From a virus, in IMG/VR virus record IMGVR_UViG_3300021420_000019, positions 37,524 through 101,523 of that record: DNA of 64,000 nucleotides. One strand, written 5' to 3'. Within the stretch, counting starts at the first letter, position 1. Each line of letters starts with the position of its first letter. The notes under the pieces were generated by a model. It did not search any database and was not told the origin of the DNA. It saw nothing but the letters and a program-made list of their open reading frames with translations. Of the stretch, positions 15,219-39,067 are shown piece by piece. The position numbers and the translations under genes were made by a program.

Positions 15219-15295
15219 GGCGGACGGGGCGATACAGGTGACGCCCCAGACTGTGAATCTGGGTATAGTGGGTTCAAGGCCCATCGTCCGCCCCA
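15219..15295 (+). tRNA. tRNA-His (GTG)
   Basis: Full cloverleaf with encoded CCA. Loop CTGTGAA gives anticodon GTG. G-1 (15219) faces C73, the identity pair for histidyl-tRNA synthetase. Confidence 0.92.
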
Positions 15296-15335
15296 AAAAT
15301 TGTTACGCAGGTCCAAATCCTAGCGTGATGACCTG

Positions 15336-15385
15336 ATCGGGGAGTGCCAGTAACACTCCCTGATTTGACTCTTTACTGGAGGGTC
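15336..15385 (+). promoter_or_regulatory. Kissing-loop leader 3
   Basis: Hairpin 1 stem 15336-15346/15354-15364, loop CCAGTAA (15347-15353). Hairpin 2 GACTCT/AGGGTC with loop TTACTGG (15373-15379), an exact 7-nt complement of loop 1. The ribosome site lies in hairpin 2; ATG at 15387. Confidence 0.82.
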
Positions 15386-15386
15386 T

Positions 15387-15887
15387 ATGAGCAGTGCAAA
15401 AGATATGCGAGCGCAGTTGGGGATGTATCCTACAACCGCCAGGCATAAGTTAAATAGATTGATAATGTTTTCTTTAGTTCAGAAGTCCGGATTGGATTTG
15501 TGCTTTCGATGCGGAGAGAAGATACTGACGCCGAAAGAATTATCGGTAGACCATAAGTTGCCTTGGTTTCGTATTTCCACGGAGCTGTTTTGGGATTTAG
15601 AGAACATAGCCTTCTCACATTTCTCCTGTAACTCGGAAGAGGGCCGGTCGAGAAATCCGAGCAATACTAGGAATCCGAATTTAATAGCTCCTGACGGGAT
15701 GCTATGGTGCAGTAGATGTAAGGATTATAGACATATTGAAGATTTTAGTCCATCTAGACGAAAGTCTAATGTTGGGCACGTCTGTAGAAAATGCGTATCA
15801 GATAAAGAGAAAACACGCTATTCTAAAGCTGTAAATCGTCCGGTTAGAGGCTACCGACAAACTATGAAAGCCTCAAAAGATTTTTGA
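15387..15887 (+). CDS. HNH homing-type endonuclease
   Basis: 166 aa. CFRCGEKI, LSVDHKLPW, NIAFSHFSCN then two further zinc pairs (CSRCKD, CRKC). The basic N-terminal helix (MRAQLGMYPTTARHKLNRLI) resembles the paralogue at 18900-19337, with a similar domain order. Probably a free-standing homing endonuclease inserted in the tRNA array. Expression is likely controlled by its two-hairpin leader. Confidence 0.8.
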   Translation: MSSAKDMRAQLGMYPTTARHKLNRLIMFSLVQKSGLDLCFRCGEKILTPKELSVDHKLPWFRISTELFWDLENIAFSHFSCNSEEGRSRNPSNTRNPNLIAPDGMLWCSRCKDYRHIEDFSPSRRKSNVGHVCRKCVSDKEKTRYSKAVNRPVRGYRQTMKASKDF

Positions 15888-15896
15888 AAATAAGTG

Positions 15897-15925
15897 TTGA
15901 CAAACAAAACGGTTTGTGAGACACT
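15897..15925 (+). promoter_or_regulatory. Candidate promoter of the tRNA array
   Basis: TTGACA (15897-15902) with a 17-base spacer to GACACT (15920-15925); the -10 is poor but the -35 is perfect. It lies just downstream of the HNH gene and ahead of the main tRNA run. Confidence 0.45.
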
Positions 15926-16148
15926 ATGAAAGTCGAGAACGGAGATACCCACCGACTAATGTCACGGGCTTCGCTCGACAAAGTTTGATACTGTTTCATG
16001 CCGGAGAGATGCTAAAGCCGTGCACGGCTAATCTGGTGTGATGACATCGACCGGAGTCACTCCCTTTAGGGCGTGAACTCCTTAGCCTGGTCAGCCGTTG
16101 ACGCGAAGGCATCCGGTCTAGAACGTTTTCGTCGGCGAATATTTTTAT
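15926..16148 (+). other. Unassigned structured region before first clustered tRNAs
   Basis: No ORF or tRNA. Several good inverted repeats are present, for example GGAGTCAC...GTGAACTCC around 16053-16082 and AGCCGTGCACGGCT near 16015. It may encode an uncharacterised small RNA or be a processed 5' leader of the tRNA transcript. Confidence 0.35.
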
Positions 16149-16223
16149 CCTTGTCTGATGTTAATGGTAGCATTCCTGTTTGAAGCACAGGCTGTAACCG
16201 TTCGAGCCGGTTGGCAAGGACCA
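16149..16223 (+). tRNA. tRNA-Phe (GAA)
   Basis: Acceptor CCTTGTC/GGCAAGG, anticodon stem CCTGT/ACAGG with loop TTGAAGC, T-arm AACCG/CGGTT, A73 and CCA encoded. Confidence 0.9.
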
Positions 16224-16305
16224 GTTAGAGACATGCGGAGTCCGCGACGGATAGAAACGGCGCGGAATCCTACAGCGAGACGCAAGTCACCATGTCCACG
16301 TTTAT
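16224..16305 (+). other. Unassigned spacer between tRNA-Phe and tRNA-Leu
   Basis: 82 bases without tRNA features. It ends in GTCACCATGTCCACG; no complete cloverleaf or gene can be drawn. Confidence 0.3.
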
Positions 16306-16393
16306 GCGTCTGTGGATGGAATAGGCAGACACGTCGGTCTCAAAAACCGATGACAGAGATGGCGTGGGAGTTCGAGTCTCCCCGGACGCACCA
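16306..16393 (+). tRNA. tRNA-Leu (CAA)
   Basis: Class II tRNA: acceptor GCGTCTG/CGGACGC, loop CTCAAAA, long variable arm, A73, CCA encoded. Confidence 0.92.
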
Positions 16394-16400
16394 ATTTTAT

Positions 16401-16490
16401 TGTGGGCAGCATTGGATGCAGCGGACACTTATAAAGTCCGAATCAGCAGATCGCTGAGCCGATAGGGTCCGATTCCCTAGTCCACAACCA
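16401..16490 (+). tRNA. Atypical class II tRNA, anticodon uncertain
   Basis: Acceptor TGTGGGC/GTCCACA, T-arm TAGGG/CCCTA, a long variable arm (CAGC/GCTG), A73 and CCA are all good. The D-arm is shrunk to GCAT-TGG-ATGC. The anticodon stem CGGAC/GTCCG closes a 9-nt loop ACTTATAAA. Read as a 7-nt loop with an A-A closing pair it would give TAT. Could be a frameshift-type or decaying tRNA. Confidence 0.6.
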
Positions 16491-16495
16491 AGTTT

Positions 16496-16581
16496 GCCGT
16501 TGTGACGGAATGGTATACGAGGGAGTCTTAAAAACTCCTGTGCTCACGCACATGCTGGTTCGAGTCCAGTCAACGGCACCA
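16496..16581 (+). tRNA. tRNA-Leu (TAA)
   Basis: Class II: acceptor GCCGTTG/CAACGGC, loop CTTAAAA, variable arm GTGC/GCAC, A73, CCA encoded. Confidence 0.92.
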
Positions 16582-16585
16582 ATCT

Positions 16586-16653
16586 GGCGGAGACAGAGGT
16601 TCGATTCCTCTCTTAGGTCACTGACCCGAGTCGTCTAGCGGCAGGATACCGCC
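16586..16653 (+). other. Circularly permuted tRNA-like element (Glu-like halves in reverse order)
   Basis: A tRNA 3' half comes first: GGCGG, AGAC, T-arm AGAGG-TTCGATT-CCTCT, then CTTAGGT. After a 5-nt loop CACTG follows a 5' half: ACCCGAG, a Glu-type D-arm (TCGTCTAGCGGCAGGATAC) and CCGCC. CCGCC pairs with GGCGG as an anticodon stem, and six of seven acceptor positions pair. There is no CCA. It could be a true permuted tRNA or two remnants. Confidence 0.45.
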
Positions 16654-16908
16654 TAACAAGATCGCAAGTCCTACGGGGCGAACGATAGAACACGGCAGGG
16701 CGAACTCGGGTGGAAACACTTTAGAGCATCTGTGCTCCGTGGGCTCGGGGAACGCGACATCCCCAGAATTTGATATTCCAGAGACCTGTAAGTCCCTGAT
16801 ACGGCAAGGTCCCGGATTGCCAGGACGGTGCTACGCGCCACGATGGGGCCGCTTTGATGCTACTGGGCCAAGTTAACCAGTCAGTCCTGGCATAGGTATT
16901 CAAGTTTT
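16654..16908 (+). other. Unassigned structured spacer
   Basis: 255 bases without tRNA or ORF. ACTCGGGT (~16705) can pair back with ACCCGAGT at 16624, and GC-rich hairpins occur around 16730-16880. No family recognised; no group I intron core was found. Confidence 0.3.
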
Positions 16909-16984
16909 GAATTCGTAGCTCAATTGCTAGAGCAATCGACTCTTACTCGATGGGTTGTGGGTTGGACTCCCACCGGATTCACCA
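16909..16984 (+). tRNA. tRNA-Lys (CTT)
   Basis: Acceptor GAATTCG/CGGATTC, loop CTCTTAC, T-loop TTGGACT (variant of TTCGA), A73, CCA encoded. Confidence 0.88.
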
Positions 16985-16986
16985 AG

Positions 16987-17048
16987 TTTGACGTTCACTT
17001 AACAGTGAGATAACGACCGTAGCGGTTTCGCGTGACTCCGCCGTCAAA
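16987..17048 (+). ncRNA. Unassigned structured RNA in a tRNA slot
   Basis: Closing stem TTTGACG/CGTCAAA with internal hairpins TCAC/GTGA and ACCG/CGGT. No anticodon or T-arm and no CCA. It starts right after the CCAAG spacer where a tRNA would begin. Confidence 0.4.
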
Positions 17049-17054
17049 AGATTC

Positions 17055-17129
17055 GGATCGCTAATTCAAAGGCTAGAAGCGCTCTCTTTTAAAGAGTTAA
17101 TCTCCGTTCGAGTCGGAGGCGATCCACCA
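17055..17129 (+). tRNA. tRNA-Lys (TTT)
   Basis: Acceptor GGATCGC/GCGATCC, loop CTTTTAA, T-arm CTCCG/CGGAG, A73, CCA encoded. Confidence 0.92.
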
Positions 17130-17137
17130 AGTTCTAT

Positions 17138-17225
17138 TGAGCCCATGACACAATGGTGTGTCCCTTCTCTGTAAAAGAAGCGGTCCTTGCGACCACGGTC
17201 AGTTCGATCCTGACGGGCTCAACCA
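17138..17225 (+). tRNA. tRNA-Tyr (GTA)
   Basis: Class II: acceptor TGAGCCC/GGGCTCA, loop CTGTAAA, long variable arm CGGTC/GACCACG, A73, CCA encoded. Confidence 0.93.
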
Positions 17226-17226
17226 T

Positions 17227-17301
17227 AGTCGAGTAGCACAATGGCGGTGCAGACTCTTGATAGGAGTAAGGCTGTCCGTTCAAGTCGGACCTCGACTACC
17301 A
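17227..17301 (+). tRNA. tRNA-Ile (GAT)
   Basis: Acceptor AGTCGAG/CTCGACT, loop TTGATAG, T-arm GTCCG/CGGAC, A73, CCA encoded. The outermost anticodon-stem pair is a G-A mismatch. Confidence 0.88.
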
Positions 17302-17311
17302 ATATTGATAT

Positions 17312-17374
17312 CCGGGGGACTAACTAGGAGCCGTATAGCAGCCTAGTTCAATGCTGTACGGGAAACCTCCCCGG
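17312..17374 (+). ncRNA. Pseudoknotted small RNA in tRNA array
   Basis: Closing stem CCGGGGG/TCCCCGG. Inside, AACTAGG (17322-17328) pairs with CCTAGTT (17342-17348), which itself lies in the loop of a 10-bp hairpin (17331-17340 with 17352-17361). This is a classic H-type pseudoknot. Family unknown. Confidence 0.5.
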
Positions 17375-17377
17375 CGT

Positions 17378-17452
17378 GGGCGATGAGTAGGACGGGAATA
17401 TTCCTGCTTTGCAAGCAGCGAGAAATCGGTTCGACTCCGATATTGTCCACCA
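17378..17452 (+). tRNA. tRNA-Ala (TGC)
   Basis: Acceptor GGGCGAT/ATTGTCC (two G-T wobbles), loop TTTGCAA, T-arm ATCGG/CCGAT, A73, CCA encoded. Confidence 0.9.
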
Positions 17453-17459
17453 AATTTAC

Positions 17460-17532
17460 ACCCTGTTCGCCAAGCGGCTAAGGCATCTGGTTTACACCCA
17501 GACATTCGGGAGTTCAAATCTCTCACGGGGTA
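17460..17532 (+). tRNA. tRNA-Val (TAC)
   Basis: Acceptor ACCCTGT/ACGGGGT, anticodon stem TCTGG/CCAGA, loop TTTACAC, A73. No CCA is encoded: the next tRNA begins two bases after A73. Confidence 0.9.
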
Positions 17533-17533
17533 C

Positions 17534-17609
17534 GGGCTGTTCGTTCACCGGAATAGGACACGACGCTACGAACGTCGAAAAAAGAGTTCGATTCTCTTAC
17601 GGCCCTCCA
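17534..17609 (+). tRNA. tRNA-Arg (ACG)
   Basis: Acceptor GGGCTGT/ACGGCCC, stem CGACG/CGTCG, loop CTACGAA, CCA encoded. Confidence 0.92.
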
Positions 17610-17613
17610 TCTT

Positions 17614-17689
17614 GACCCTGTAACTCAGCGCACAGAGTGTCCGCCTTCGAAGCGGTTCGCCGGGGGTTGGAATCCCTCCAGGGTCTCCA
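17614..17689 (+). tRNA. tRNA-Arg (TCG)
   Basis: Acceptor GACCCTG/CAGGGTC, loop CTTCGAA, T-loop TTGGAAT, CCA encoded. Confidence 0.9.
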
Positions 17690-17691
17690 GT

Positions 17692-17791
17692 ATGTTGTAA
17701 TACGAAGCGTAACACAACAGAAGGCGGCTACCAGTTGTGGGTAGGTCGCAAGTGAAATCCAAAGCACGTTCGGTGATAGCCCGGACAACAT
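17692..17791 (+). ncRNA. Unassigned structured RNA in a tRNA slot
   Basis: Closing stem ATGTTGT/ACAACAT around ~86 bases that include a long hairpin (GCGGCTACC with GGGTAGGTCGC). No tRNA arms. Family unknown. Confidence 0.4.
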
Positions 17792-17798
17792 TTTCTGT

Positions 17799-17886
17799 TA
17801 AGGCGTAGGGGAATTGGTAGACCCGCTCGGCTGTTACCCGAGAGTCGTAAAGACACCTGTAGGTTCGAAACCTACCGCCTTAGCCA
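17799..17886 (+). tRNA. tRNA-Asn (GTT) on a class II body
   Basis: Acceptor TAAGGCG/CGCCTTA, loop CTGTTAC gives GTT, G73 (an Asn identity base) and CCA. The D-arm (GGGGAATTGGTAGACCC) and long variable arm (GTC-GTAAA-GAC) are Leu/Ser-like, which normal tRNA-Asn lacks. See findings. Confidence 0.85.
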
Positions 17887-17894
17887 CTTTCAAA

Positions 17895-17969
17895 GGACGA
17901 TTAGTTTAATCGGTAGAACTGCTGTCTTGTAAACAGCGGGAAATGGTTCGAGACCATTATCGTCCTCCA
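17895..17969 (+). tRNA. tRNA-Thr (TGT)
   Basis: Acceptor GGACGAT/ATCGTCC, stem GCTGT/ACAGC, loop CTTGTAA, CCA encoded. Confidence 0.93.
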
Positions 17970-17971
17970 AG

Positions 17972-18034
17972 TTTTGTCTCTCGGTCATTATGGCCAAGCC
18001 GAGAAAATCTCTGTGGCGCAGAGTAAAGACAAAA
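17972..18034 (+). ncRNA. Three-way-junction-like RNA in a tRNA slot
   Basis: Perfect 8-bp closing stem TTTTGTCT/AGACAAAA, then hairpins CTCGG/CCGAG and CTCTG/CAGAG. It has no tRNA features and lies between two tRNA-Thr genes. Confidence 0.45.
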
Positions 18035-18041
18035 AGTTTAA

Positions 18042-18116
18042 GCAGGGCTAGTATAATCGGTAGTACGCGCCCCTCGTAAGGTCGTAATGCGTGTTCGAGT
18101 CACGCGCCCTGCTCCA
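18042..18116 (+). tRNA. tRNA-Thr (CGT)
   Basis: Acceptor GCAGGGC/GCCCTGC, loop CTCGTAA, T-arm GCGTG/CACGC, CCA encoded. One anticodon-stem mismatch. Confidence 0.88.
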
Positions 18117-18121
18117 AGTTA

Positions 18122-18168
18122 AGCGGTGCCTCACTCTGATGTCCAGGTTAAATGTTCAGACAGCCGCT
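18122..18168 (+). other. Short inverted-repeat spacer
   Basis: AGCGG/CCGCT enclose 37 bases between tRNA-Thr genes. Possibly another small structured RNA; evidence is weak. Confidence 0.25.
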
Positions 18169-18177
18169 CTTGATTTT

Positions 18178-18251
18178 GCTGGCATAGCTCAATGGAAGAG
18201 CTTCCGCTTGGTAAGCGGAGGACTTGAGTCCGATTCTCAATGCTAGCTCCA
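18178..18251 (+). tRNA. tRNA-Thr (GGT)
   Basis: Acceptor GCTGGCA/TGCTAGC, stem TCCGC/GCGGA, loop TTGGTAA, CCA encoded. Confidence 0.93.
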
Positions 18252-18258
18252 ATTTTAC

Positions 18259-18336
18259 GGCCTGTTGGTCCAGCCTGGAGTGGACGCGTCCTTGTCACGG
18301 ACGAGATCGTGGGTCCGAATCCCACACGGGTCGCCA
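18259..18336 (+). tRNA. tRNA-Asp (GTC)
   Basis: Acceptor GGCCTGT/ACGGGTC, stem CGTCC/GGACG, loop TTGTCAC, G73, CCA encoded. Confidence 0.93.
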
Positions 18337-18341
18337 TTTAC

Positions 18342-18415
18342 GGCCCTGTCGATTAGTGTCAGGTCATTCGCTTCTCAAGCGAACAGCAGCGGTTAGATTC
18401 CGCTCAGGGCCACCA
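18342..18415 (+). tRNA. tRNA-Glu (CTC)
   Basis: Acceptor GGCCCTG/CAGGGCC, stem TTCGC/GCGAA, loop TTCTCAA, T-loop TTAGATT, CCA encoded. Confidence 0.9.
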
Positions 18416-18420
18416 AGTTT

Positions 18421-18497
18421 GAGGACATGGTCCAATCGGTAGCGATGCTGGCCTTTCAAGCCATGCGGTGCGGGTTCGAGTCCCGCTGTCCTTACCA
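18421..18497 (+). tRNA. tRNA-Glu (TTC)
   Basis: Acceptor GAGGACA/TGTCCTT, loop CTTTCAA, T-arm GCGGG/CCCGC, CCA encoded. Confidence 0.9.
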
Positions 18498-18509
18498 AAT
18501 CGAGGAACT

Positions 18510-18770
18510 ATGAGCTGGGTGATGGTTAACGACTTCACCGTCGTGGAAAGAAAAGAAGACGGCACGGTAACACAGCAGGTGTTCACCTCGCACGCCCAGG
18601 CCCGTCAGTTCATGGAGAAGTACGCGGGACAAAAACCTATGAGGCCGCACAAGCCCACGATGCCTAGTCACGCTCGCGCTAGGTCCGGTAGTTCAAAGCC
18701 TATCATCCCGCAGACAGCGGAACAGATAGCGCTGAGAGAAGCGGCGCTGAAACAGTTTAACGGTTTGTAA
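18510..18770 (+). CDS. Small hypothetical protein within tRNA array
   Basis: 86 aa starting MSWVMVNDFTVVERKEDG, with GAGGAAC before the ATG, 12 bases after tRNA-Glu. A beta-rich first third is followed by a basic Pro/Ser/Arg-rich linker and a short C-terminal helix. The C-terminal pattern resembles the 20656-20868 protein only in composition. Function unknown. Confidence 0.6.
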   Translation: MSWVMVNDFTVVERKEDGTVTQQVFTSHAQARQFMEKYAGQKPMRPHKPTMPSHARARSGSSKPIIPQTAEQIALREAALKQFNGL

Positions 18771-18777
18771 GTTTAAT

Positions 18778-18864
18778 CCGCTGGTGATGGAATTACCAGA
18801 CATGCGAATCTTAGAAATTCGTGCCCTATGTGGCGTGGGAGTGGAAGCCTCCCCCGGCGGACCA
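18778..18864 (+). tRNA. tRNA-Leu (TAG)
   Basis: Class II: acceptor CCGCTGG/CCGGCGG, stem CGAAT/ATTCG, loop CTTAGAA, unusual T-loop TGGAAGC, CCA encoded. Confidence 0.88.
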
Positions 18865-18899
18865 ATTTAAATCTTATCAACGACCGGGAGGTCAACGAT

Positions 18900-19337
18900 A
18901 TGAAACTGAAAGACGAATCTAAGTCAGAGCGTCGCGCTAATCAATTAGGAATGTCTTACGGTACAGCATCCGGTAGACTTCGTAAGATGATACTATTTGA
19001 TGTATTGAGAAAGCACAGCGAGAATAAATGTTTTAAGTGCGGCGAATTGATAGAGTCCGAAAAAGACTTAAGCATCGAGCATAAACAGCCCTGGGAAAAT
19101 AAAAATCCCGATCTGTTTTGGGATTTAAATAACATCGCTTTTTCTCACATGTGCTGCAACATACCGCATGTTTATAAGGGCAGCGGAGCGTCACTTAGAA
19201 AGATCGGTCCGGAAGGAACTTCGTGGTGCTGGCAGCATAAAGAATTTTTACCAATTGGAGAATTTTATACGGATTCTTCAAATTGGAACGGTCTACACAG
19301 CAGATGTAAATCTTGTCATAAGTCTAGACCTAGATAG
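18900..19337 (+). CDS. HNH homing-type endonuclease (paralogue of 15387 gene)
   Basis: 145 aa from the ATG at 18900 after GGGAGG. CFKCGELI, LSIEHKQPW, NIAFSHMCCN, CWQHKEF and CKSC follow the same order as in the 15387-15887 protein, including the LFWDLxNIAFSH block. The ribosome site lies in a small GACC-GGGA-GGTC hairpin, but no complementary upstream loop was found, unlike the other leaders. Probably a free-standing endonuclease inserted among tRNAs. Confidence 0.8.
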   Translation: MKLKDESKSERRANQLGMSYGTASGRLRKMILFDVLRKHSENKCFKCGELIESEKDLSIEHKQPWENKNPDLFWDLNNIAFSHMCCNIPHVYKGSGASLRKIGPEGTSWCWQHKEFLPIGEFYTDSSNWNGLHSRCKSCHKSRPR

Positions 19338-19344
19338 TTTCTAC

Positions 19345-19419
19345 TGCCCGTTATAGTTCTGTTGAACTTCGAGGTCTCATAAGCCTTGCAGGTTGGTTAG
19401 ATTCCAACACGGGCTACCA
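19345..19419 (+). tRNA. tRNA-Met (CAT)
   Basis: Loop CTCATAA, T-arm GTTGG/CCAAC, acceptor TGCCCGT/ACGGGCT with a terminal T-T mismatch, CCA encoded. The anticodon stem lacks the three G-C pairs of initiators, so it is an elongator or a lysidine-type Ile tRNA. Confidence 0.85.
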
Positions 19420-19425
19420 CTTTAA

Positions 19426-19499
19426 GCGTCTGTGATGTAACGGTAGCATATTTGACTGCCAGTCAAATCGTCTCGATTCGAATTCGAGTAGACGCCCCA
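19426..19499 (+). tRNA. tRNA-Gly (GCC)
   Basis: Acceptor GCGTCTG/TAGACGC, stem TTTGA/TCAAA, loop CTGCCAG, CCA encoded. Confidence 0.93.
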
Positions 19500-19596
19500 C
19501 ATTGATGTTCGCCTGTCCGTGGCGCGAGTAATTACCGCAGCCGCCCAGGCCGGAGCCCGATCCCGAGAGTGTAAAACGTCATAGTCGGAAAAATTT

Positions 19597-19713
19597 ATGA
19601 GTGAACAAAAACAGTGTTTAGAGTGCAAAGTTCCGATACACGAGGGTCCATTCGGCCCGTACATAGTGTATCTAAACGAAGACGGAACTCCACATATTTG
19701 CGATAAGAAATAG
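19597..19713 (+). CDS. Micro-protein with CxxC motif (38 aa)
   Basis: MSEQKQCLECKVPIHEGPFG... with CLEC and a later ICDKK, possibly one zinc site. GGAA precedes the start. It lies between two tRNA-Gly genes, five bases before the second. The 97-base stretch ahead of it (19500-19596) has no tRNA. Coding status is likely but not certain. Confidence 0.5.
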   Translation: MSEQKQCLECKVPIHEGPFGPYIVYLNEDGTPHICDKK

Positions 19714-19717
19714 TTTT

Positions 19718-19791
19718 GCAAGCATGGTATATAGATTGTGCCCCGGCCTTCCAAGTCGGAGAATCGAGTTTGAGTCTCGATGCTTGCTCCA
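19718..19791 (+). tRNA. tRNA-Gly (TCC)
   Basis: Acceptor GCAAGCA/TGCTTGC, stem CCGGC/GTCGG, loop CTTCCAA, CCA encoded. Confidence 0.93.
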
Positions 19792-19798
19792 AGTTTAT

Positions 19799-19873
19799 AT
19801 GAGAGTCGTCCAGCGGCCAGGACTGCGGTCTCCAAAACCGCGTACGGTGGTTCGAGTCCATCCTCTCATGCCA
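19799..19873 (+). tRNA. tRNA-Trp (CCA)
   Basis: Acceptor ATGAGAG/CTCTCAT, stem GCGGT/ACCGC, loop CTCCAAA, G73, CCA encoded. Confidence 0.93.
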
Positions 19874-19878
19874 ATTTT

Positions 19879-19955
19879 GTCTCTATAGCTTAACGGATAA
19901 AGCGCCGAGCTTCTACCTCGGGACCACGCGGGTTCAATTCCTGCTAGAGACTCCA
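19879..19955 (+). tRNA. tRNA-Arg (TCT)
   Basis: Acceptor GTCTCTA/TAGAGAC, stem CCGAG/CTCGG, loop CTTCTAC, CCA encoded. Confidence 0.93.
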
Positions 19956-19956
19956 A

Positions 19957-20012
19957 TTTTCGTGGCCGCCCTAACGGGTATAAAACTATCGGGACGATAT
20001 AGACGGCGAAAA
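19957..20012 (+). ncRNA. Three-way-junction-like RNA in a tRNA slot
   Basis: TTTTCG plus GCCG pair with CGGCGAAAA, enclosing hairpins CCC/GGG and ATCG/CGAT. No tRNA arms. Similar size and position to the 17972-18034 element. Confidence 0.4.
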
Positions 20013-20031
20013 TTCCCGAGCGGAAGATTAC

Positions 20032-20107
20032 GGACGCGTAGCACAGCGGACAATGCGGCTCTCCCCTAAAGAGTCAGGCCCAGGTTCAACTCCTGGCGCG
20101 TCCCCCA
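20032..20107 (+). tRNA. tRNA-Arg (CCT)
   Basis: Acceptor GGACGCG/CGCGTCC, loop CCCCTAA (C rather than the usual U at position 33), CCA encoded. Confidence 0.87.
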
Positions 20108-20123
20108 GTTCTACCGAGGTCTC

Positions 20124-20276
20124 ATGTGGACCGCAGTCGTTGATGGCTACATCATAACACAAAGAATGTCCGATGACGACGTGTGGTTCAGATGTAACTT
20201 GTTCGGAAGGGAGCCGTTGATAGACGCACTTGAGAGGTTCCTGAAAGATACCGAAGACAATGGACACAAAGACTAA
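20124..20276 (+). CDS. Small hypothetical protein (50 aa)
   Basis: MWTAVVDGYIITQRMSDDDV..., GAGGT before the ATG. A beta-hairpin-like start and an acidic helix at the end (LIDALERFLKDTEDN). Overlaps the next tiny ORF by 17 bases. No family recognised. Confidence 0.55.
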   Translation: MWTAVVDGYIITQRMSDDDVWFRCNLFGREPLIDALERFLKDTEDNGHKD

Positions 20277-20349
20277 GAACGGGCTCCTGCGGCTCTCGAT
20301 ACTGTGGGGCCCGATAGCGATCTTGGTTATCTCGATTTTGACGAATTAG
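20260..20349 (+). CDS. Possible tiny membrane peptide (29 aa)
   Basis: MDTKTKNGLLRLSILWGPIA... one hydrophobic segment (LSILWGPIAILVISIL) after a basic start, typical of small phage membrane peptides. It ends two bases before the RNase P RNA. Coding evidence is modest. Confidence 0.35.
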   Translation: MDTKTKNGLLRLSILWGPIAILVISILTN

Positions 20350-20351
20350 TT

Positions 20352-20641
20352 TGGCAGTCTAGACAATCGCGGGGAACCGAGGAAAGTCAGGACACAACTA
20401 AGTACAGTGCCGTGGGAGATGCGGGCCGGGCAACCGGACGGGTAAGCCTCCGTATCGCATTGCGAGTTAACACTCTCGTTGCGTTCATTGGAGCGGAGAC
20501 AGTCCACACTGGTGCAATCGAAAATAGGACCTGAGCGTTTACTTAGCGTGTTGAGGGTCGGGTTTCGAGCAAAGAGGAATGATTGTCGCCGCGACTTGTG
20601 TAGTATCGTTCGCGGAACAAAATCCTGCTTATTGACTGCCA
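20352..20641 (+). ncRNA. rnpB: Phage-encoded RNase P RNA (bacterial type A-like)
   Basis: Ends pair as P1 (TGGCAGTC/GACTGCCA) and P2 (GACAATC/GATTGTC). The CR-I block GAGGAAAGTC is intact. P4 is CAGGA near the 5' end with TCCTG before CTTAT at the 3' end, a compensated change from the usual CCGGG/CCCGG. GACAGTCCACAC matches CR-II/III and GGAATGATTGTC matches CR-IV. About 290 nt versus ~350-400 in hosts: P3 is reduced. It should trim tRNA 5' leaders with host RnpA. Confidence 0.9.
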
Positions 20642-20655
20642 CACTTTAGGATCAT

Positions 20656-20868
20656 ATGCCGCAATCAGTTGACGAAATTCTAGCAGGCGCAAAGGAAACA
20701 TTGGCGAACGCCAACAAGGCCTTCCCGAGTTCTTCTCCAGCGCCCCCGCAACCGCAGAAGCCCTCTTACACTGCGGCGCACGCAGCGAGAAAGGCCGTCC
20801 CGAGTATGGGCGATGAGCTAGCGGCTAAGGGCACGATGGTCGATAAAGCGAAACAGGCGTTGAAGTAA
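20656..20868 (+). CDS. Small hypothetical protein
   Basis: 70 aa, Ala/Pro/Lys-rich, MPQSVDEILAGAKETLANAN at the start, then a Pro/Gln linker. Located directly after the RNase P RNA and before tRNA-Ser. It is too short to be the ~110-aa RNase P protein and lacks its RNR motif. Function unknown. Confidence 0.55.
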   Translation: MPQSVDEILAGAKETLANANKAFPSSSPAPPQPQKPSYTAAHAARKAVPSMGDELAAKGTMVDKAKQALK

Positions 20869-20872
20869 TTAC

Positions 20873-20958
20873 GGAGCGGTGCCGAAACGGTAGCCGGATA
20901 TGTTTGCTAAACATACGTCCGAAAGGACGTGGGAGTTCGAGTCTCTCCCGCTCCGCCA
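20873..20958 (+). tRNA. tRNA-Ser (GCT)
   Basis: Class II: acceptor GGAGCGG/CCGCTCC, stem TATGT/ACATA, loop TTGCTAA, variable arm CGTCC/GGACG, G73, CCA encoded. Confidence 0.94.
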
Positions 20959-20985
20959 GATTGAATACTTGTCCGAAAGGGCATA

Positions 20986-21084
20986 GGGAACCTTAAACGG
21001 TAAAGACGCGAGAATATCTAAAAGCTATTCGAAGCGGACCTTGCAGTCGAAAGACGAAACTGAGAATCTTAGCAAGGGGTTCCC
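20986..21084 (+). ncRNA. tRNA-like structured RNA without anticodon arm match
   Basis: GGGAACC/GGTTCCC closing stem, a D-arm-like CTTAAACGGTAAAG and a hairpin GAATA/TATTC. Further hairpins (GTC-GAAA-GAC) follow instead of a T-arm, and there is no CCA. Possibly a decayed tRNA or an unknown RNA. Confidence 0.4.
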
Positions 21085-21094
21085 GAGCATTTAT

Positions 21095-21178
21095 GGAAAG
21101 CAGTCGGCAATGGTGCCTCACAGTCTTGAAAACTGTACCACCCGCAAGGGTGACGGAGTTCGATTCTCCGGCTTTCCT
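21095..21178 (+). tRNA. tRNA-Ser (TGA)
   Basis: Class II: acceptor GGAAAGC/GCTTTCC, stem ACAGT/ACTGT, loop CTTGAAA, variable arm CACCC/GGGTG. The 3' end reads TCCG, so CCA is not fully encoded. Confidence 0.9.
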
Positions 21179-21180
21179 CC

Positions 21181-21254
21181 GTCCGAGTCGGCAAATGATA
21201 AGCTAGTCGTCCGCAAAACGACAATCGCTGGTTTGATTCCAGCCTCGGACTCCA
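21181..21254 (+). tRNA. tRNA-Cys (GCA)
   Basis: Acceptor GTCCGAG/CTCGGAC, stem GTCGT/ACGAC, loop CCGCAAA (C33 instead of U33), CCA encoded. It starts three bases after tRNA-Ser. Confidence 0.88.
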
Positions 21255-21263
21255 AATTTCTAT

Positions 21264-21337
21264 TCCCTTGTCGGCTAAAGGCAGGCCACGAGTCTTTGAA
21301 ACTCGTTACGGACGTTCGACCCGTCCCGAGGGAACCA
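21264..21337 (+). tRNA. tRNA-Gln (TTG)
   Basis: Acceptor TCCCTTG/CGAGGGA, stem CGAGT/ACTCG, loop CTTTGAA, CCA encoded. Confidence 0.93.
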
Positions 21338-21344
21338 TTTCTAC

Positions 21345-21419
21345 TCCCGTGTCGGCTAACTGGAAGGCCAGCGCCCTCTGAAGGCGTTAATTTTCGTTCG
21401 AATCGAAACGTGGGAACCA
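21345..21419 (+). tRNA. tRNA-Gln (CTG)
   Basis: Acceptor TCCCGTG/CGTGGGA, stem GCGCC/GGCGT, loop CTCTGAA, CCA encoded. Ends four bases before the next CDS. Confidence 0.92.
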
Positions 21420-21423
21420 TTTC

Positions 21424-21849
21424 ATGAAGAAACTGTTACTCGCTCTCGTGTTAATTTTGGCTCTCGCGACACCAGCGCAGCCGAGGCACCACGCGAGCCA
21501 AGGTATCATCATCGAGATTCACGCGAGCACCACGTACGAGACCGGCAGGTTGAAGCGGTTATCAGATAAGCTCAACTTCGACGGACAGCATATGGTCCCT
21601 TGGTGGAGAATCGTAGTTCTGAACAAAGCCGATTGGACAGATGCTCTCATTAAGTATAACCTCGAAGGGCAAACTGATAGCGCGTTCACCGTCCTAGGTC
21701 AGAACGTGACATTCGTGAACGAAGACTATATCGGCTTTGCCGATGACGCTAGGTTAGAACACACGCTAGCCCACGAAAGTGCTCATTTGATTTGTTCATG
21801 CACTAGTGAAGATACCGCGAATAAGATCGCGAAGATTCTAGAGAAGTAA
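21424..21849 (+). CDS. Secreted HExxH putative metallopeptidase
   Basis: 141 aa. Signal peptide MKKLLLALVLILALATPAQ, mature part ~120 residues with TLAHESAHLICSC, a zinc-protease HESAH motif. Ile/Asn-rich beta segments precede it. Exported from the infected cell if the signal works. It starts just after tRNA-Gln and lies ahead of a secreted serine protease, so the two may form a small extracytoplasmic module. Confidence 0.65.
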   Translation: MKKLLLALVLILALATPAQPRHHASQGIIIEIHASTTYETGRLKRLSDKLNFDGQHMVPWWRIVVLNKADWTDALIKYNLEGQTDSAFTVLGQNVTFVNEDYIGFADDARLEHTLAHESAHLICSCTSEDTANKIAKILEK

Positions 21850-21926
21850 GCCGAGCAGAGGCTCCGAATTCGGAACGGTACGTTCTCGTTAGATGCTCTG
21901 TAAAGGATACGAGATCAGGTACTACA

Positions 21927-22682
21927 GTGAGAAAGTTTCTCGCATTGGCTCTATCGTTGGTCCTACTTATCTCCGGATCAGCCGTACTCATTACGGGCGC
22001 ACCAAGATCGTTTGAACCCCAGGCTCGCGCAGCCACGGGCGCTATCTTCGTTGATGCTGACCGTAGATTCGAATGTTCCGGAACTGAAATAGCTCACACG
22101 AAAGACGGTGACGGAATATTTTTGACGGCTCGTCATTGCGTTGCTTCTGTCGAAACAAACAAGATCACTCGGCGCATGCAACTGTCCTTTTCAGACAACA
22201 TGGGCGGACCTTACTACGATGCCGTACCGATTGCGATTTCAACCAGTGATGATCTAGCTCTTCTGCTTGTTAGAAATGGTGCGAGCATTCCAGAGGTGAA
22301 GATCAAGGACGAGCGTAGGCTACGCGGCGGTGATCCGATCTTTAACGTTAGCTACCCTCTCGGAGCAGGTAAGTTAATTTTTCATGGGGAATATTTAGCT
22401 CCCAGGTTCCCGATGTTTCCTGGCATACTTGCGGATTACCCCATGTGGCAGTTCGCGATGCCAGCAAATATTACGTGGGCTCACGGGTCCAGTGGTAGTG
22501 GGGTCTTCAGTAGCGGGCAGCGTGCTTTGATCGCGGTCTGTGTCGGAACGTTTTCTGAGGGCAGTTTCAACGTGGCAATCCCCGCAGATAGAGTACTTGA
22601 CTTTCTTGCGGATTTATCGGATAATACAGTTGAACGGTTTGCTTTGCAAAACCCTGAGAAGGAAGAAGTAGAAGTCTTTTAA
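21927..22682 (+). CDS. Secreted trypsin-like serine protease
   Basis: 251 aa with a GTG start. N-terminal signal (FLALALSLVLLISGSAVL). Catalytic triad motifs in order: TARHCV (His), DDLALLLV (Asp) and HGSSGSGVFS (Ser), all present. The length suits a single protease domain without PDZ. Exported proteases are unusual in phages; possible roles are attack on envelope proteins, superinfection exclusion or virion maturation. No regulation visible beyond its proximity to the tRNA array. Confidence 0.85.
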   Translation: MRKFLALALSLVLLISGSAVLITGAPRSFEPQARAATGAIFVDADRRFECSGTEIAHTKDGDGIFLTARHCVASVETNKITRRMQLSFSDNMGGPYYDAVPIAISTSDDLALLLVRNGASIPEVKIKDERRLRGGDPIFNVSYPLGAGKLIFHGEYLAPRFPMFPGILADYPMWQFAMPANITWAHGSSGSGVFSSGQRALIAVCVGTFSEGSFNVAIPADRVLDFLADLSDNTVERFALQNPEKEEVEVF

Positions 22683-22720
22683 TTTAATCAGATACGTTCC
22701 GCATAATTAACGGAACCAGG

Positions 22721-22764
22721 CTTGGGAGAGCCCCTACTCTCCCAGGCCGACTCTTAAGGGAGAG
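22721..22764 (+). promoter_or_regulatory. Kissing-loop leader 4
   Basis: Hairpin 1 (10 bp, 22721-22730/22737-22746) with loop CCCCTA. Hairpin 2 CTCT/AGAG with loop TAAGGG (22755-22760) carrying the ribosome site. Loop-loop pairing is five of six. A third dyad GTTCCG/CGGAAC lies upstream (22696-22716). Confidence 0.65.
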
Positions 22765-22768
22765 ACAA

Positions 22769-23419
22769 ATGAAAGGACATCTTTACAGATATCCGCATCC
22801 GTATAGTTCAGATAAGTTTATTTACGCCGGGCAGGGCGAGAAACGCGATAATGAGCATCGCGGTGGCCGAACTAGTTTCGGTCGTAGATTCGAGAAACTA
22901 TTTCCCGGCATTGAATTGCCGAATCCGGTAAGAGAGACGATTGAAGTCCGAGATTATTTAGAGCTAAATGAACTAGAAATAATCTGGATGTTTCAATATC
23001 ATACTTGGCGTGGATATCCTGGCGGAATGAATTTAACTTTACCCGGGTCAATCGATTATAGGAGTATGGGTTTAATCGGCGGACGTGTTCAGGGCCCTAA
23101 GAACGTAGAATCGGGGGCGCTAGCAAAAATCCAAAGTGCAGGCGGGCGTGTTAGCGGTCGAATGAATTCTGAGTCCGGACGTATTCAAGAACTCGGTCAC
23201 ACGCAGGGTCGTAAGAATGTTGAAAGCGGGCAACTTGCCAGTATACAAAGTATGGCCGGTCGTGCCGGTGGGCGCATAGCTTTAGAAAGCGGACAATTTT
23301 CTGGAATCAGAAGCAGAGGTAATCATAGTCGTTGGCACATAGCCCGTGGTATTTCTAGACCGAGTGTTTGTTCGTTGTGTGCAGAAACAGAAAATTTAAC
23401 GAGAACTAGCTTAACGTAG
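22769..23419 (+). CDS. GIY-YIG-like homing endonuclease with repeat DNA-binding tail
   Basis: 216 aa. The N-terminus LYRYPHPYSSDKFIYAGQG resembles the GIY-YIG strands, followed by an EERR-type basic region and EIIWMFQYHTWRG. Residues ~105-185 carry NUMOD-like repeats (GGRVSGRMNSESG, AGRAGGRIALESG). The end has HSRWHI...CSLC, a zinc-like tail. Paralogue at 54573. Its 3' end overlaps tRNA-Pro by 20 bases. Confidence 0.75.
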   Translation: MKGHLYRYPHPYSSDKFIYAGQGEKRDNEHRGGRTSFGRRFEKLFPGIELPNPVRETIEVRDYLELNELEIIWMFQYHTWRGYPGGMNLTLPGSIDYRSMGLIGGRVQGPKNVESGALAKIQSAGGRVSGRMNSESGRIQELGHTQGRKNVESGQLASIQSMAGRAGGRIALESGQFSGIRSRGNHSRWHIARGISRPSVCSLCAETENLTRTSLT

Positions 23420-23473
23420 AGCACGTGCTTTGGAAGCACGGGGGTGAAGTTTCGAGCACTTCGTTCTCGACCA
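23400..23473 (+). tRNA. tRNA-Pro (TGG)
   Basis: Acceptor CGAGAAC/GTTCTCG, stem CGTGC/GCACG, loop TTTGGAA, CCA encoded. The first 20 bases are also the last codons and stop of the GIY-YIG-like gene. Confidence 0.92.
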
Positions 23474-23481
23474 GTTTAAAA

Positions 23482-23555
23482 CGGAAATTCTGATAATGGT
23501 AGTCTCTACGTTTCGGATACGTAGGGCGGACGTTCGATTCGTCCATTTCCGACCA
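23482..23555 (+). tRNA. tRNA-Pro (CGG)
   Basis: Acceptor CGGAAAT/ATTTCCG, loop TTCGGAT, T-arm GGACG/CGTCC, CCA encoded. Last tRNA of the array. Confidence 0.92.
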
Positions 23556-33942: not shown

Positions 33943-33971
33943 TTGACAAGCAGACAGAAGTGTGCTAAACT
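33943..33971 (+). promoter_or_regulatory. Sigma70 promoter for HNH gene
   Basis: TTGACA (33943-33948), 17-base spacer, TAAACT (33966-33971), ahead of kissing-loop leader 5. Confidence 0.8.
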
Positions 33972-33989
33972 ATTTGTAGCTACAAGGAT

Positions 33990-34029
33990 GGGGGTGCCTC
34001 AATCACCCCCTACTCTATTGAGGAGAGTA
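33990..34029 (+). promoter_or_regulatory. Kissing-loop leader 5
   Basis: Hairpin 1 GGGGGTG/CACCCCC with loop CCTCAAT (33997-34003). Hairpin 2 TACTCT/AGAGTA with loop ATTGAGG (34017-34023), an exact 7-nt complement carrying the ribosome site. ATG at 34033. Confidence 0.88.
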
Positions 34030-34032
34030 AAC

Positions 34033-34632
34033 ATGTATCATACTATAAAGGATTTGATAGGTAAAAGATTCGGTAAGTTATTAGTAGTTGCAGATTCTGG
34101 TGAGAGAAATAACCACAGAGAAGTAATTTGGTCGTGTTTATGCGATTGCGGGAAAGAGTGTAAGAAAACGTCCAGCACTCTTTCAGCGAATAAAAGTAGA
34201 TCATGCGGCTGTAATCGGTCGGAGCCTAAGCCCAGCCTTCAAAAGAAGAGAATAGATGACGCGCCGCAACGTCAATCATTTACGCAATATCGTGTCGCCG
34301 CCAAAAGCAGAGGCTACACTTTCAATCTCACGCTAGAACAGTTTAAGAATATTTGTTCGTTAGATTGTTTTTATTGTGGTTCTTCTCCGTCAATGGTTAA
34401 GAGAACGAAATATGATTCTATATCTATGAACGGAGTAGATCGCAAAGACAACGTTTTAGGATATGAATCTAGTAATTGTGTTCCTTGTTGTGATATTTGT
34501 AATAGGATGAAACATACTCTGTCTGTAGAAGAGTTTGTTCAACACATCGAGAAGGTGTACCATTCCAGCCGTCAGTCAAAAACAAGCGATCATGATGCGT
34601 ATCGCGGAACATCATCCGGAAGAGTTGTATGA
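34033..34632 (+). CDS. HNH homing-type endonuclease
   Basis: 199 aa. The N-terminal ~60 aa are a zinc domain (LIGKRFGKLLVV, CLCDCG, SCGC) shared with the 41273 protein. Residues ~110-165 hold the HNH region: CFYCG, NGVDRKDN, NCVPCCDICNRMK. This layout is typical of phage free-standing homing endonucleases. It has its own promoter and a two-hairpin leader. Its 3' end overlaps the next gene in another frame by 98 bases. Confidence 0.82.
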   Translation: MYHTIKDLIGKRFGKLLVVADSGERNNHREVIWSCLCDCGKECKKTSSTLSANKSRSCGCNRSEPKPSLQKKRIDDAPQRQSFTQYRVAAKSRGYTFNLTLEQFKNICSLDCFYCGSSPSMVKRTKYDSISMNGVDRKDNVLGYESSNCVPCCDICNRMKHTLSVEEFVQHIEKVYHSSRQSKTSDHDAYRGTSSGRVV

Positions 34633-34753
34633 TCGTAATAAGGGTGCCGCTGAGATGACCCACTCTCAGTTGCACGATTTCGCGAAGACCCCCAATAAAG
34701 GGCTTCCTACATACGCACACGCCAGAGCAGCCCGGAAGAAAGAAAATGGCTAA
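34535..34753 (+). CDS. DUF3008-like small protein, start overlapped by HNH gene
   Basis: 72 aa. PAVSQKQAIMMRIAEHHPEE and QLHDFAKTPNKGLP resemble DUF3008, which normally begins MPAxSKKQQ. Here that N-terminus is preceded by nine residues encoded inside the HNH gene, as if insertion of the endonuclease replaced the original start. Function of the family is unknown. Confidence 0.55.
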   Translation: MFNTSRRCTIPAVSQKQAIMMRIAEHHPEELYDRNKGAAEMTHSQLHDFAKTPNKGLPTYAHARAARKKENG

Positions 34754-34907
34754 CGAATTCGGCGGACTGATGCCTAAGAAGGGCGAGAACACAGACATAA
34801 TCAAGACCGTAGATACAACCCCTGTCCCGGATAAGCCAGCGCCCCCGAAGCCTCCCGCAGGCTGGGACAAGCTCTCATACGGGATAGCACGGGCCGCGAG
34901 GAAGTAA
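34746..34907 (+). CDS. Small Pro/Lys-rich protein (53 aa)
   Basis: MANEFGGLMPKKGENTDIIK..., a disordered Pro-rich centre and C-terminal GWDKLSYGIARAARK. It overlaps the previous stop by eight bases. Function unknown. Confidence 0.55.
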   Translation: MANEFGGLMPKKGENTDIIKTVDTTPVPDKPAPPKPPAGWDKLSYGIARAARK

Positions 34908-34917
34908 AGTTTGGGCC

Positions 34918-35051
34918 TATCTGAAAGAAGAACTGGTCTCCCTCGGGCTCTGACCAGCGCACGTCGGAACGATACGACATATCGGCCATGCTTGAATCGA
35001 TATCTTACCTAAGCCACGCCAGAACCGTGGCCCAGAAGAGCATTTCAGATA
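34918..35051 (+). ncRNA. Candidate structured ncRNA, five-way junction
   Basis: A perfect 9-bp closing stem TATCTGAAA/TTTCAGATA encloses four hairpins: CTGGTC/GACCAG (34933-34957), GTCG/CGAC (34963-34978), TATCG/CGATA (34980-35002) and GCCACG/CGTGGC (35013-35031). No ORF. Lies 46 bases upstream of the next ATG, so it is either an independent RNA or a cis element. Confidence 0.55.
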
Positions 35052-36841: not shown

Positions 36842-39067
36842 ATGCCTTTAGTCGGTCAGGCCAAGCAAGATTGGGAGTTCGTAAGCTATCGTGCGAAACG
36901 GCAGACCGAGTACTGGGCCCGCATTGTAGACGGTGACGTGACTCTGGCAAGGGAACTCGATCCAGAGATTCTTGCAGCCGCGCTGAGTCAAGATAAGCCG
37001 TTCCGTTCAGAGGGACTGACCCTGAAGGAACTGTGGATGCTCTATATTGGCGTGAATAAGCTAACCGAGGAAGAGGAACAGCGCGGAAAGAAAAAGAAGA
37101 AAGACCAGTCTATCGAGCCGATCAAGTCCCGAAGGATCGCTGGCATGCCGCTGTTGGATAAGAAGGGAGTTCCAACGGGCGAGTACGAATATGGTGTCCA
37201 CTTTCACGATTCTGGATATCTGCACTTCGACCAGTGGCTATACGCACGAGATCAGGCCCGTAAGAACCTGTTGTGGTTGAATCGAGAAGTTCTCGGCAAT
37301 ACCCTTGTAATCGAGAGGGTTCATCAGCAGGTTTGCGATCAGTTTGTCTTCCCGAACTTTGATGGCGTGTACCGTCACGGATACACGATCCAGGAACTGA
37401 CCGGCACTATCAAGAACTTGAATAGAGTTCCTAGAAAGTGGGACCTGGAATCTCGAAACTACGTTCCGAGGACCCAGACCGATATCGAGAACCCGGATAA
37501 CTACGCTAAAATTTCCATGACCGAGGACGCTAGAGACTTTTTCAAGTCAACCATCGGTCGCGCTCACGTAATTCAGTTGATGCTGGCGATACCGGATGTC
37601 AGCATCATCATCTGTTGCGCGGATAACAACCTCGCTGAAATTTTCGTAACTGAAATCAAAAAGAAGTTCTTTCTCGGTGCAGGAGCAGACCCAGGTCCTA
37701 TACATCTGCTATTTCCTGAGTACGTTCTACGCGGGGTTAAGGGAACGTCTAACGAGCCCCTTTGGACTCCGGCTCGTAGGCTAGAGCGAACATATCCTAC
37801 CCTGTGGGCCGACTCAATCGAGTCCACACTGTCTGGTTTGCATTGCGATTTCTTCAACTTGGACGACGTGATCTCTAACACGAACTGTCAGACTCCGATC
37901 ACCCGCGAAAAGATGAAGAACCATATCGATACTAACATGTCGGTGTGCGACACTTGGGGCTGGATCAACATAATTGGCACCAGATACTTTCCGGATGATT
38001 ATTACGGGTATCTGGAGGCCATGTCGATAGAGAAGCCGGAAATTTACGGCATTAAGCTCTTCAAGAGAGCGGCCTGGTATGTAAAGCCAGAGTTCGCTCA
38101 CATCGGGAATAAGAAAGTCAAGATGCTCGAAGAGCACATGGTCAACTTGACCTTCCCAGAGCACGCCGACTGGAAGTTCCTCCAGGGAAAGCTAAGAAAC
38201 GAGTACACGTTCCGTTGTCAGTATCTGAACGAGCCCGTCTGGGGTTCGGATCAGATCGACATGCCCTTAGAGTTGTTGAAGGCCCACCTGATGAACCCGA
38301 TGGAGTCCAATACTCTACAGGGCGAGATTTTTGTCATGGGCGATATGGCGAAGGAAGCCAAGAAGAACTCGGATTACTCTACCTTCGTCGCGATGAAGAT
38401 TTACAGGAAGCGGGACCCGAACACACAGCAGCAAGACGGAACTGTCGCGGTTGTGATCCTTGAGGTCGTTTATGGCCGCTGGACACAGACCGAGACAGCA
38501 TACCAGCTCGCACAAATTAACAGGAGATGGAACCCGCGTCGTATTCAAATAGAGAATACAGGCGGACTGGAGTCGTTCATCTCTTACGCCATACCCGAGG
38601 CGTTTAGAAAGACGGGCCAACCCTGGTACCACATATTTTGGGCACCAGTTGAGCAAGGCTACGACGCAAAAAGAAACAGAATAAAAGGTCTAGAGGTTCT
38701 TTTAAAAGCTGATCGACTTTATTTTGCTATGGGGCCCTGGAACGACGAAGCTTTCACACAGTTAAGTCAATACACTGGCGCGAAGAGCACCCGTTCTAGG
38801 AAGGATGATATACCGGACGCAATGTCATTTATCAGCCGGTATCTTCCCAGTAGTTCTCCAAAGTCCCCCGAGCAACAGCAGCAAGAGGTAGATCAGCAAG
38901 AGAAAGAGATGGGCGCAAAATTACTAAAGGCGCAGCACGACGCGATGTTCGGTCCGACGAGTTTTAATTACACTCCGCCAGCCGAGCCCGCACCAATATC
39001 TTCAAACCCTAGCGGTAACACCGGGCTAGTCGGACGTTTATTCGGCGGGAACGGGATGAGAGCATAA
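36842..39067 (+). CDS. Terminase large subunit
   Basis: 741 aa. The C-terminal RNase H-like nuclease is clear: FVMGDMAKEAKKNSDYSTFVAM (first Asp), RRIQIENTGG (acidic residue) and RSRKDDIPDAMSF (final Asp pair). The N-terminal ATPase is diverged; DVSIIICCADN and DFFNLDDV may be the ATPase strands. It packages DNA into capsids through the portal encoded next. It starts after GGAGACAAT and is followed one base later by the portal gene. Confidence 0.85.
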   Translation: MPLVGQAKQDWEFVSYRAKRQTEYWARIVDGDVTLARELDPEILAAALSQDKPFRSEGLTLKELWMLYIGVNKLTEEEEQRGKKKKKDQSIEPIKSRRIAGMPLLDKKGVPTGEYEYGVHFHDSGYLHFDQWLYARDQARKNLLWLNREVLGNTLVIERVHQQVCDQFVFPNFDGVYRHGYTIQELTGTIKNLNRVPRKWDLESRNYVPRTQTDIENPDNYAKISMTEDARDFFKSTIGRAHVIQLMLAIPDVSIIICCADNNLAEIFVTEIKKKFFLGAGADPGPIHLLFPEYVLRGVKGTSNEPLWTPARRLERTYPTLWADSIESTLSGLHCDFFNLDDVISNTNCQTPITREKMKNHIDTNMSVCDTWGWINIIGTRYFPDDYYGYLEAMSIEKPEIYGIKLFKRAAWYVKPEFAHIGNKKVKMLEEHMVNLTFPEHADWKFLQGKLRNEYTFRCQYLNEPVWGSDQIDMPLELLKAHLMNPMESNTLQGEIFVMGDMAKEAKKNSDYSTFVAMKIYRKRDPNTQQQDGTVAVVILEVVYGRWTQTETAYQLAQINRRWNPRRIQIENTGGLESFISYAIPEAFRKTGQPWYHIFWAPVEQGYDAKRNRIKGLEVLLKADRLYFAMGPWNDEAFTQLSQYTGAKSTRSRKDDIPDAMSFISRYLPSSSPKSPEQQQQEVDQQEKEMGAKLLKAQHDAMFGPTSFNYTPPAEPAPISSNPSGNTGLVGRLFGGNGMRA

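Follow-up and report, generated by a model that had tools for sequence, protein, structure and literature searches.

What occupies a 190-base gap between two small genes in a soil virus of bacteria, when the gap holds no sizeable open reading frame on the + strand? The window analyzed here covers 64,000 nucleotides of a virus record that is 101,523 bases long. A sequence-only reading of it had proposed a 134-nt RNA (34918-35051), with a perfect 9-bp closing stem around four hairpins in series, which would be either a riboregulator acting on the gene that follows or an RNA in its own right. Its position and closing stem prove exact, with TATCTGAAA (34918-34926) pairing to TTTCAGATA (35043-35051), and the four hairpins within this stem are those of the minimum-energy fold of the + strand. 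The gap is likewise real: + strand open reading frames (ORFs) of at least 40 residues are absent between 34907, the stop codon of a 53-residue ORF (34746-34907), and 35098, the start of an 86-residue ORF whose product is histidine-rich. On the minus strand, one mechanical 62-residue ORF overlaps the gap.

The window RNA folds with an energy of -39.7 kcal/mol (z = -2.44; 4 of 200 shuffles are equally good), and its consensus pairs have probabilities of 0.65-1.0, the majority at or above 0.94. This z-score is modest and single-sequence folding alone is weak evidence; the case rests on homologues. The same RNA lies in the same interval of L001, whose terminase is 62% identical to that of the window, and a further relative, L013, also carries it. 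Homologues were gathered by pattern scans of viral contigs and by two successive covariance models, made from 6 and from 26 sequences, and the RNA is present in 42 viral records, with exactly one copy per record. Members are about 95-150 nt long, and the alignment comprises 35 rows with 33 distinct sequences. Weak covariance hits (L136, L144 and similar) were rejected as members, and L205 matched a pattern and no covariance model. The least certain member is L193, where GGAAGAAC is absent at the expected place.

Covariation on homologues had been named at the outset as a check on this fold, and the fold passes it strongly. In a MAFFT alignment of the first six sequences, which was not fitted to the structure, RNAalifold finds 18 pairs, 13 of them with two-sided changes. 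In the 35-row alignment, which was fitted to the structure and leans its way, standard pairs make up 94.8% of paired cells and two-sided changes occur at 22 of 25 pairs (217 cells versus 55.8 in shuffles). The covariation score is 0.716, compared with 0.174 +/- 0.014 in shuffles, and it falls to 0.10 or less when partners are slid by 1-3 columns. Except for single P3 bases, the stems from which the covariation derives were outside the search patterns. The paired columns hold 33 G-U cells versus 9 A-C cells, and this excess of G-U fits an RNA of the + strand and not DNA or the other strand; a DNA element was ruled out on this ground. A shared protein-coding reading was also rejected, since the fold and indels argue against it and every member has stops in at least one frame; single members often have one or two open frames across the RNA.

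The predicted architecture is a closing helix, P1, with a five-way junction bearing hairpins P2-P5, all on the + strand, in the conserved order P1 - GAAGAAC - P2 - CG[C/G]AC - P3 (loop nAAn[G/C]AUn) - P4 - (U)(G)CUUACCUAAG - P5 - CCAGAAGNGCA - P1. In P1, each of the 7 inner pairs has changed on both sides among homologues. The first junction strand, GAAGAA (34927-34932), is near-invariant in 34 of 35 members, the exception being L193, and the C that directly follows it and opens P2 is almost invariant (hence GAAGAAC). Hairpin P2 (34933-34957), with two-sided changes at 5 of 6 pairs, leads into CGCAC (34958-34962; CG[C/G]AC in the family), the junction between P2 and P3. Two of the four pairs of P3 (34963-34978) covary, its outermost G-C pair is invariant and its loop is conserved. 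P4 (34979-35003) is variable in length and loop; its 3 basal pairs all covary, with 100% of their cells paired. The strand that joins P4 to P5, CUUACCUAA (35004-35012), is the longest invariant one. Hairpin P5 (35013-35031) has two-sided changes at 5 of 5 pairs, and at its base A35012 and C35032 covary as A.C or G.U. The last junction strand, CCAGAAGAGCA (35032-35042), is kept as CCAGAAGNGCA, in some members with one base fewer.

The junction strands GAAGAAC, CG[C/G]AC, CUUACCUAAG and CCAGAAGNGCA are nearly invariant and far more conserved than the stems, an invariance that is partly a selection effect because patterns made from these strands found some of the members. Mutual information reveals one strong non-nested pair (columns 74-86), which connects C34960 in the junction between P2 and P3 with G34971 in the loop of P3. 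The two positions are C-G or G-C in 32 of 32 distinct sequences, and a rough tree built from the RNA itself implies that they changed together at least 8 times. This pattern indicates a tertiary pair, giving the family at least one such predicted contact. Intramolecular kissing between the P2 and P4 loops was considered separately; it is seen in L151 only and is not a family feature.

The P4 loop is palindromic in about sixteen members. Among 20 lineage-collapsed loops there are five distinct, unrelated palindromes of 6-8 nt (TAGCTA, CATATG, CCTATAGG, TTCGAA and TTCGCGAA), an excess with p of about 0.00015 by loop shuffling with lineages collapsed, in a test conceived post hoc once the loops had been seen. 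Loops with TAGCTA, CATATG or CCTATAGG, nearly all by count, consist of two bases, the palindrome and one base; TTCGAA would share this geometry if the loop-closing T-G pair opens. Palindromic loops with a geometry like that of HIV-1 dimerization are found in L122/L187, L174, L182, and L077 and relatives. P4 loops in the remaining members are short or GNRA-like. Self-complementary P4 loops in several other lineages suggest that those members may dimerize. The window loop, of 11-13 nt, contains none of these palindromes, as is the case in many other members, and we make no dimer claim for the window member.

The window RNA lies between small genes, and 1.8 kb separate it from the large terminase gene downstream (36842-39067), whose product has a PF17289 nuclease domain (RNase H-like). 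RNA and large terminase (phrog_2) are on the same strand in 27 of the 27 records that have both. They are within about 2.2 kb of each other in 21 of these; in five the distance is 5.6-7.0 kb, with the RNA between scaffold-like and capsid genes, and in one, the 125-kb record L204, it is 38 kb. The usual surroundings are terminase, portal, scaffold or capsid genes on the late-gene strand. Seventeen records have a P22-like portal, and the carriers' terminases are of several types. In one lineage, that of L204 (5123-5227) and L213 (5316-5420), the RNA is in a tail-tip-like module, whose genes we take to be tail genes from their likeness to DUF2163 and NlpC/P60-like sequences. Several members have Cpn10/GroES-like genes between RNA and portal (L186, 7736-8065; L177, 3449-3817, with PF00166 in L177). 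Elsewhere in the window, ARAGORN finds a cluster of 31 tRNA genes on one strand (15220-23555) that covers most amino acids.

In most members the 5' end of the RNA is 1-14 nt past the upstream stop codon, a spacing that relies on a crude ORF caller. Neighboring genes differ on both sides. Those downstream encode the 86-residue histidine-rich protein, an HNH endonuclease, a small terminase candidate, DUF3008-like, Cpn10-like or NlpC/P60-like proteins, or the major capsid protein, and in many members a gene with a ribosome-binding site follows the RNA.

Relatives of the window virus differ in whether they carry the RNA. It is absent at the corresponding place from L008 and L009, with terminases 72% identical to that of the window, and from L012 (58%), and present in L013, L151 and L152 (35-37%); in L010, the genes that flank the RNA elsewhere are almost adjacent. 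L008, L010 and L011 are fragments, in which the syntenic interval is nevertheless covered. The RNAs of L122 and L187 are identical over 124 nt and lie in a shared 332-nt block that begins 10 nt ahead of the RNA; their terminases are 67% identical and their upstream genes differ. On this comparison of genomes, the RNA is an accessory, exchangeable unit, presumably dispensable for the basic life cycle because close relatives are without it. The 53-residue gene before the RNA is kept in L012, L013, L151 and L152, with or without the RNA, and no family was found for its protein. By eye, genes for HNH-like or LAGLIDADG-like homing endonucleases are often seen near the RNA and within its module (window 33943-34632; L001 4235-4777; L152 6607-7197; L179 4269-4676; L207 4183-4761; LAGLIDADG-like in L176 and L178). 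Such endonucleases may help to move the RNA, but they are generally common in these phages.

The RNA appears to be a new class of phage RNA without a catalogued relative. Searched with the whole window at the gathering threshold, Rfam 15 returned tRNAs only; with four members at E values up to 10, it returned nothing or chance-level hits far under the cut-offs, and neither the phi29 prohead RNA (pRNA) model nor, at E 10, any known ribozyme class in Rfam was matched. Two patterns restricted to the most conserved 3' part had no match among 84,980 genomes of bacteria and archaea. A blastn search of 50,697 INPHARED phage records with four members, a weak test for such an RNA, gave chance-like short hits only, and covariance searches of the complete Tunturi_3 and epsilon15 records found no copy. 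We found no description of the RNA in the literature covered, which excludes most subscription journals.

How might such an RNA act? Of the two initial readings, an independent RNA is the better supported, its fold being kept with covariation. Tentatively, and short of confidence, we favor a structured phage RNA of a class not described before: independent, released from late mRNA and active in trans. It would be co-transcribed with the late structural genes and cut out of the late mRNA by processing; release from a longer transcript is suggested because the window RNA has no promoter- or terminator-like site on either side. It would then act late in infection as a stable RNA, bare or bound to protein in a particle, a trans action that we infer solely from the changing neighbors. 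A role in the phage's own late program (assembly, packaging or mRNA handling) seems more likely than a single-gene switch. The riboregulator initially suggested finds no support, since the gene after the RNA varies among members while the RNA stays constant. More generally, a riboswitch or leader could draw on the ribosome-binding sites of the genes that follow the RNA in many members, and we nonetheless judge it very improbable, because the flanking genes differ. It is largely refuted by downstream genes that are unrelated among members and form no constant class, and the window has no terminator-like hairpin behind the RNA.

The chief rival to an independent trans-acting RNA is an element acting in cis on the late polycistronic mRNA, either a novel self-cleaving ribozyme or a post-stop structure that guides cleavage or shields the message before it. 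Its closeness to the upstream stop codon in most members, whichever genes are involved, and its accessory, modular nature fit such an element, and the five-way junction, invariant strands, tertiary pair and A.C/G.U pair resemble catalytic cores. However, none of the Rfam ribozyme families was matched at E 10, the sequence reveals no cleavage site, and a plain stability element would not require so many conserved unpaired bases; we consider the cis element possible, if rather unlikely. An RNA for packaging or capsid assembly, from outside the phi29 group, has the attraction of genes for terminase, portal, scaffold or capsid next door and of five unrelated palindromes in P4. It would be a modular five-way-junction RNA working like phi29 prohead RNA, exchanged by phages with unrelated terminases and dimerizing, or multimerized by P4 kissing loops, in some lineages. 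Yet there is no Rfam match to phi29 pRNA or another family, the window terminase retains its RNase H-like nuclease domain, and many members, including that of the window, lack the palindrome, whose test was post hoc. Relatives that package DNA without the RNA argue against an essential role, and a strict head or packaging role is weakened by the tail-module position in L204 and L213 and by the 38-kb gap in L204. Both as a packaging RNA and in this broader morphogenetic form, the proposal is improbable. A host-directed RNA, for example a decoy or a regulator that works by base pairing and travels in the late operon as an accessory gene, would agree with the accessory distribution, single copy and modular position, but the conserved strands are in the junction and fixed relative to the helices, as expected of structural contacts rather than a seed, and we give it a low probability.

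Recognized from a reading of raw sequence, this is a well-supported RNA class found repeatedly among the structural genes of phages whose terminases differ. Phage RNAs with a known late-infection role are few, and the small size, invariant core and accessory presence of this one make it directly testable.

Several P4 loops of other members share the loop geometry of the HIV-1 dimerization initiation site, a 9-nt loop with a 6-nt palindrome preceded by two bases and followed by one; this is a one-loop resemblance without homology and is absent from the window RNA. HDV-type ribozymes are laid out as a nested double pseudoknot, whereas the present RNA is predicted to enclose four hairpins in one closing stem, and it has no hammerhead or HDV-type match in Rfam. 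Structured RNAs in phage genomes include theta (HDV-like) and hammerhead ribozymes (PMC10879173, PMC3088659). The pRNA of phi29 is, like the present one, a phage-encoded structured RNA (120-174 nt) tied to packaging genes. The two differ in layout, the present RNA is placed within the late genes rather than at a genome end, and its carriers have terminases that include a nuclease domain; pRNA is reported to be confined to phi29-like phages (PMC11476376). GOLLD and ROOL are phage-encoded structured RNAs of unknown function that form kissing loops between copies; both are found near tRNA islands, and GOLLD often exceeds 800 nt (PMC12286853). In contrast, the present RNA is about 95-150 nt long, sits in structural operons and has no Rfam match. 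It shares with GOLLD and ROOL that it is a phage-encoded structured RNA, and its novelty lies in the RNA class.
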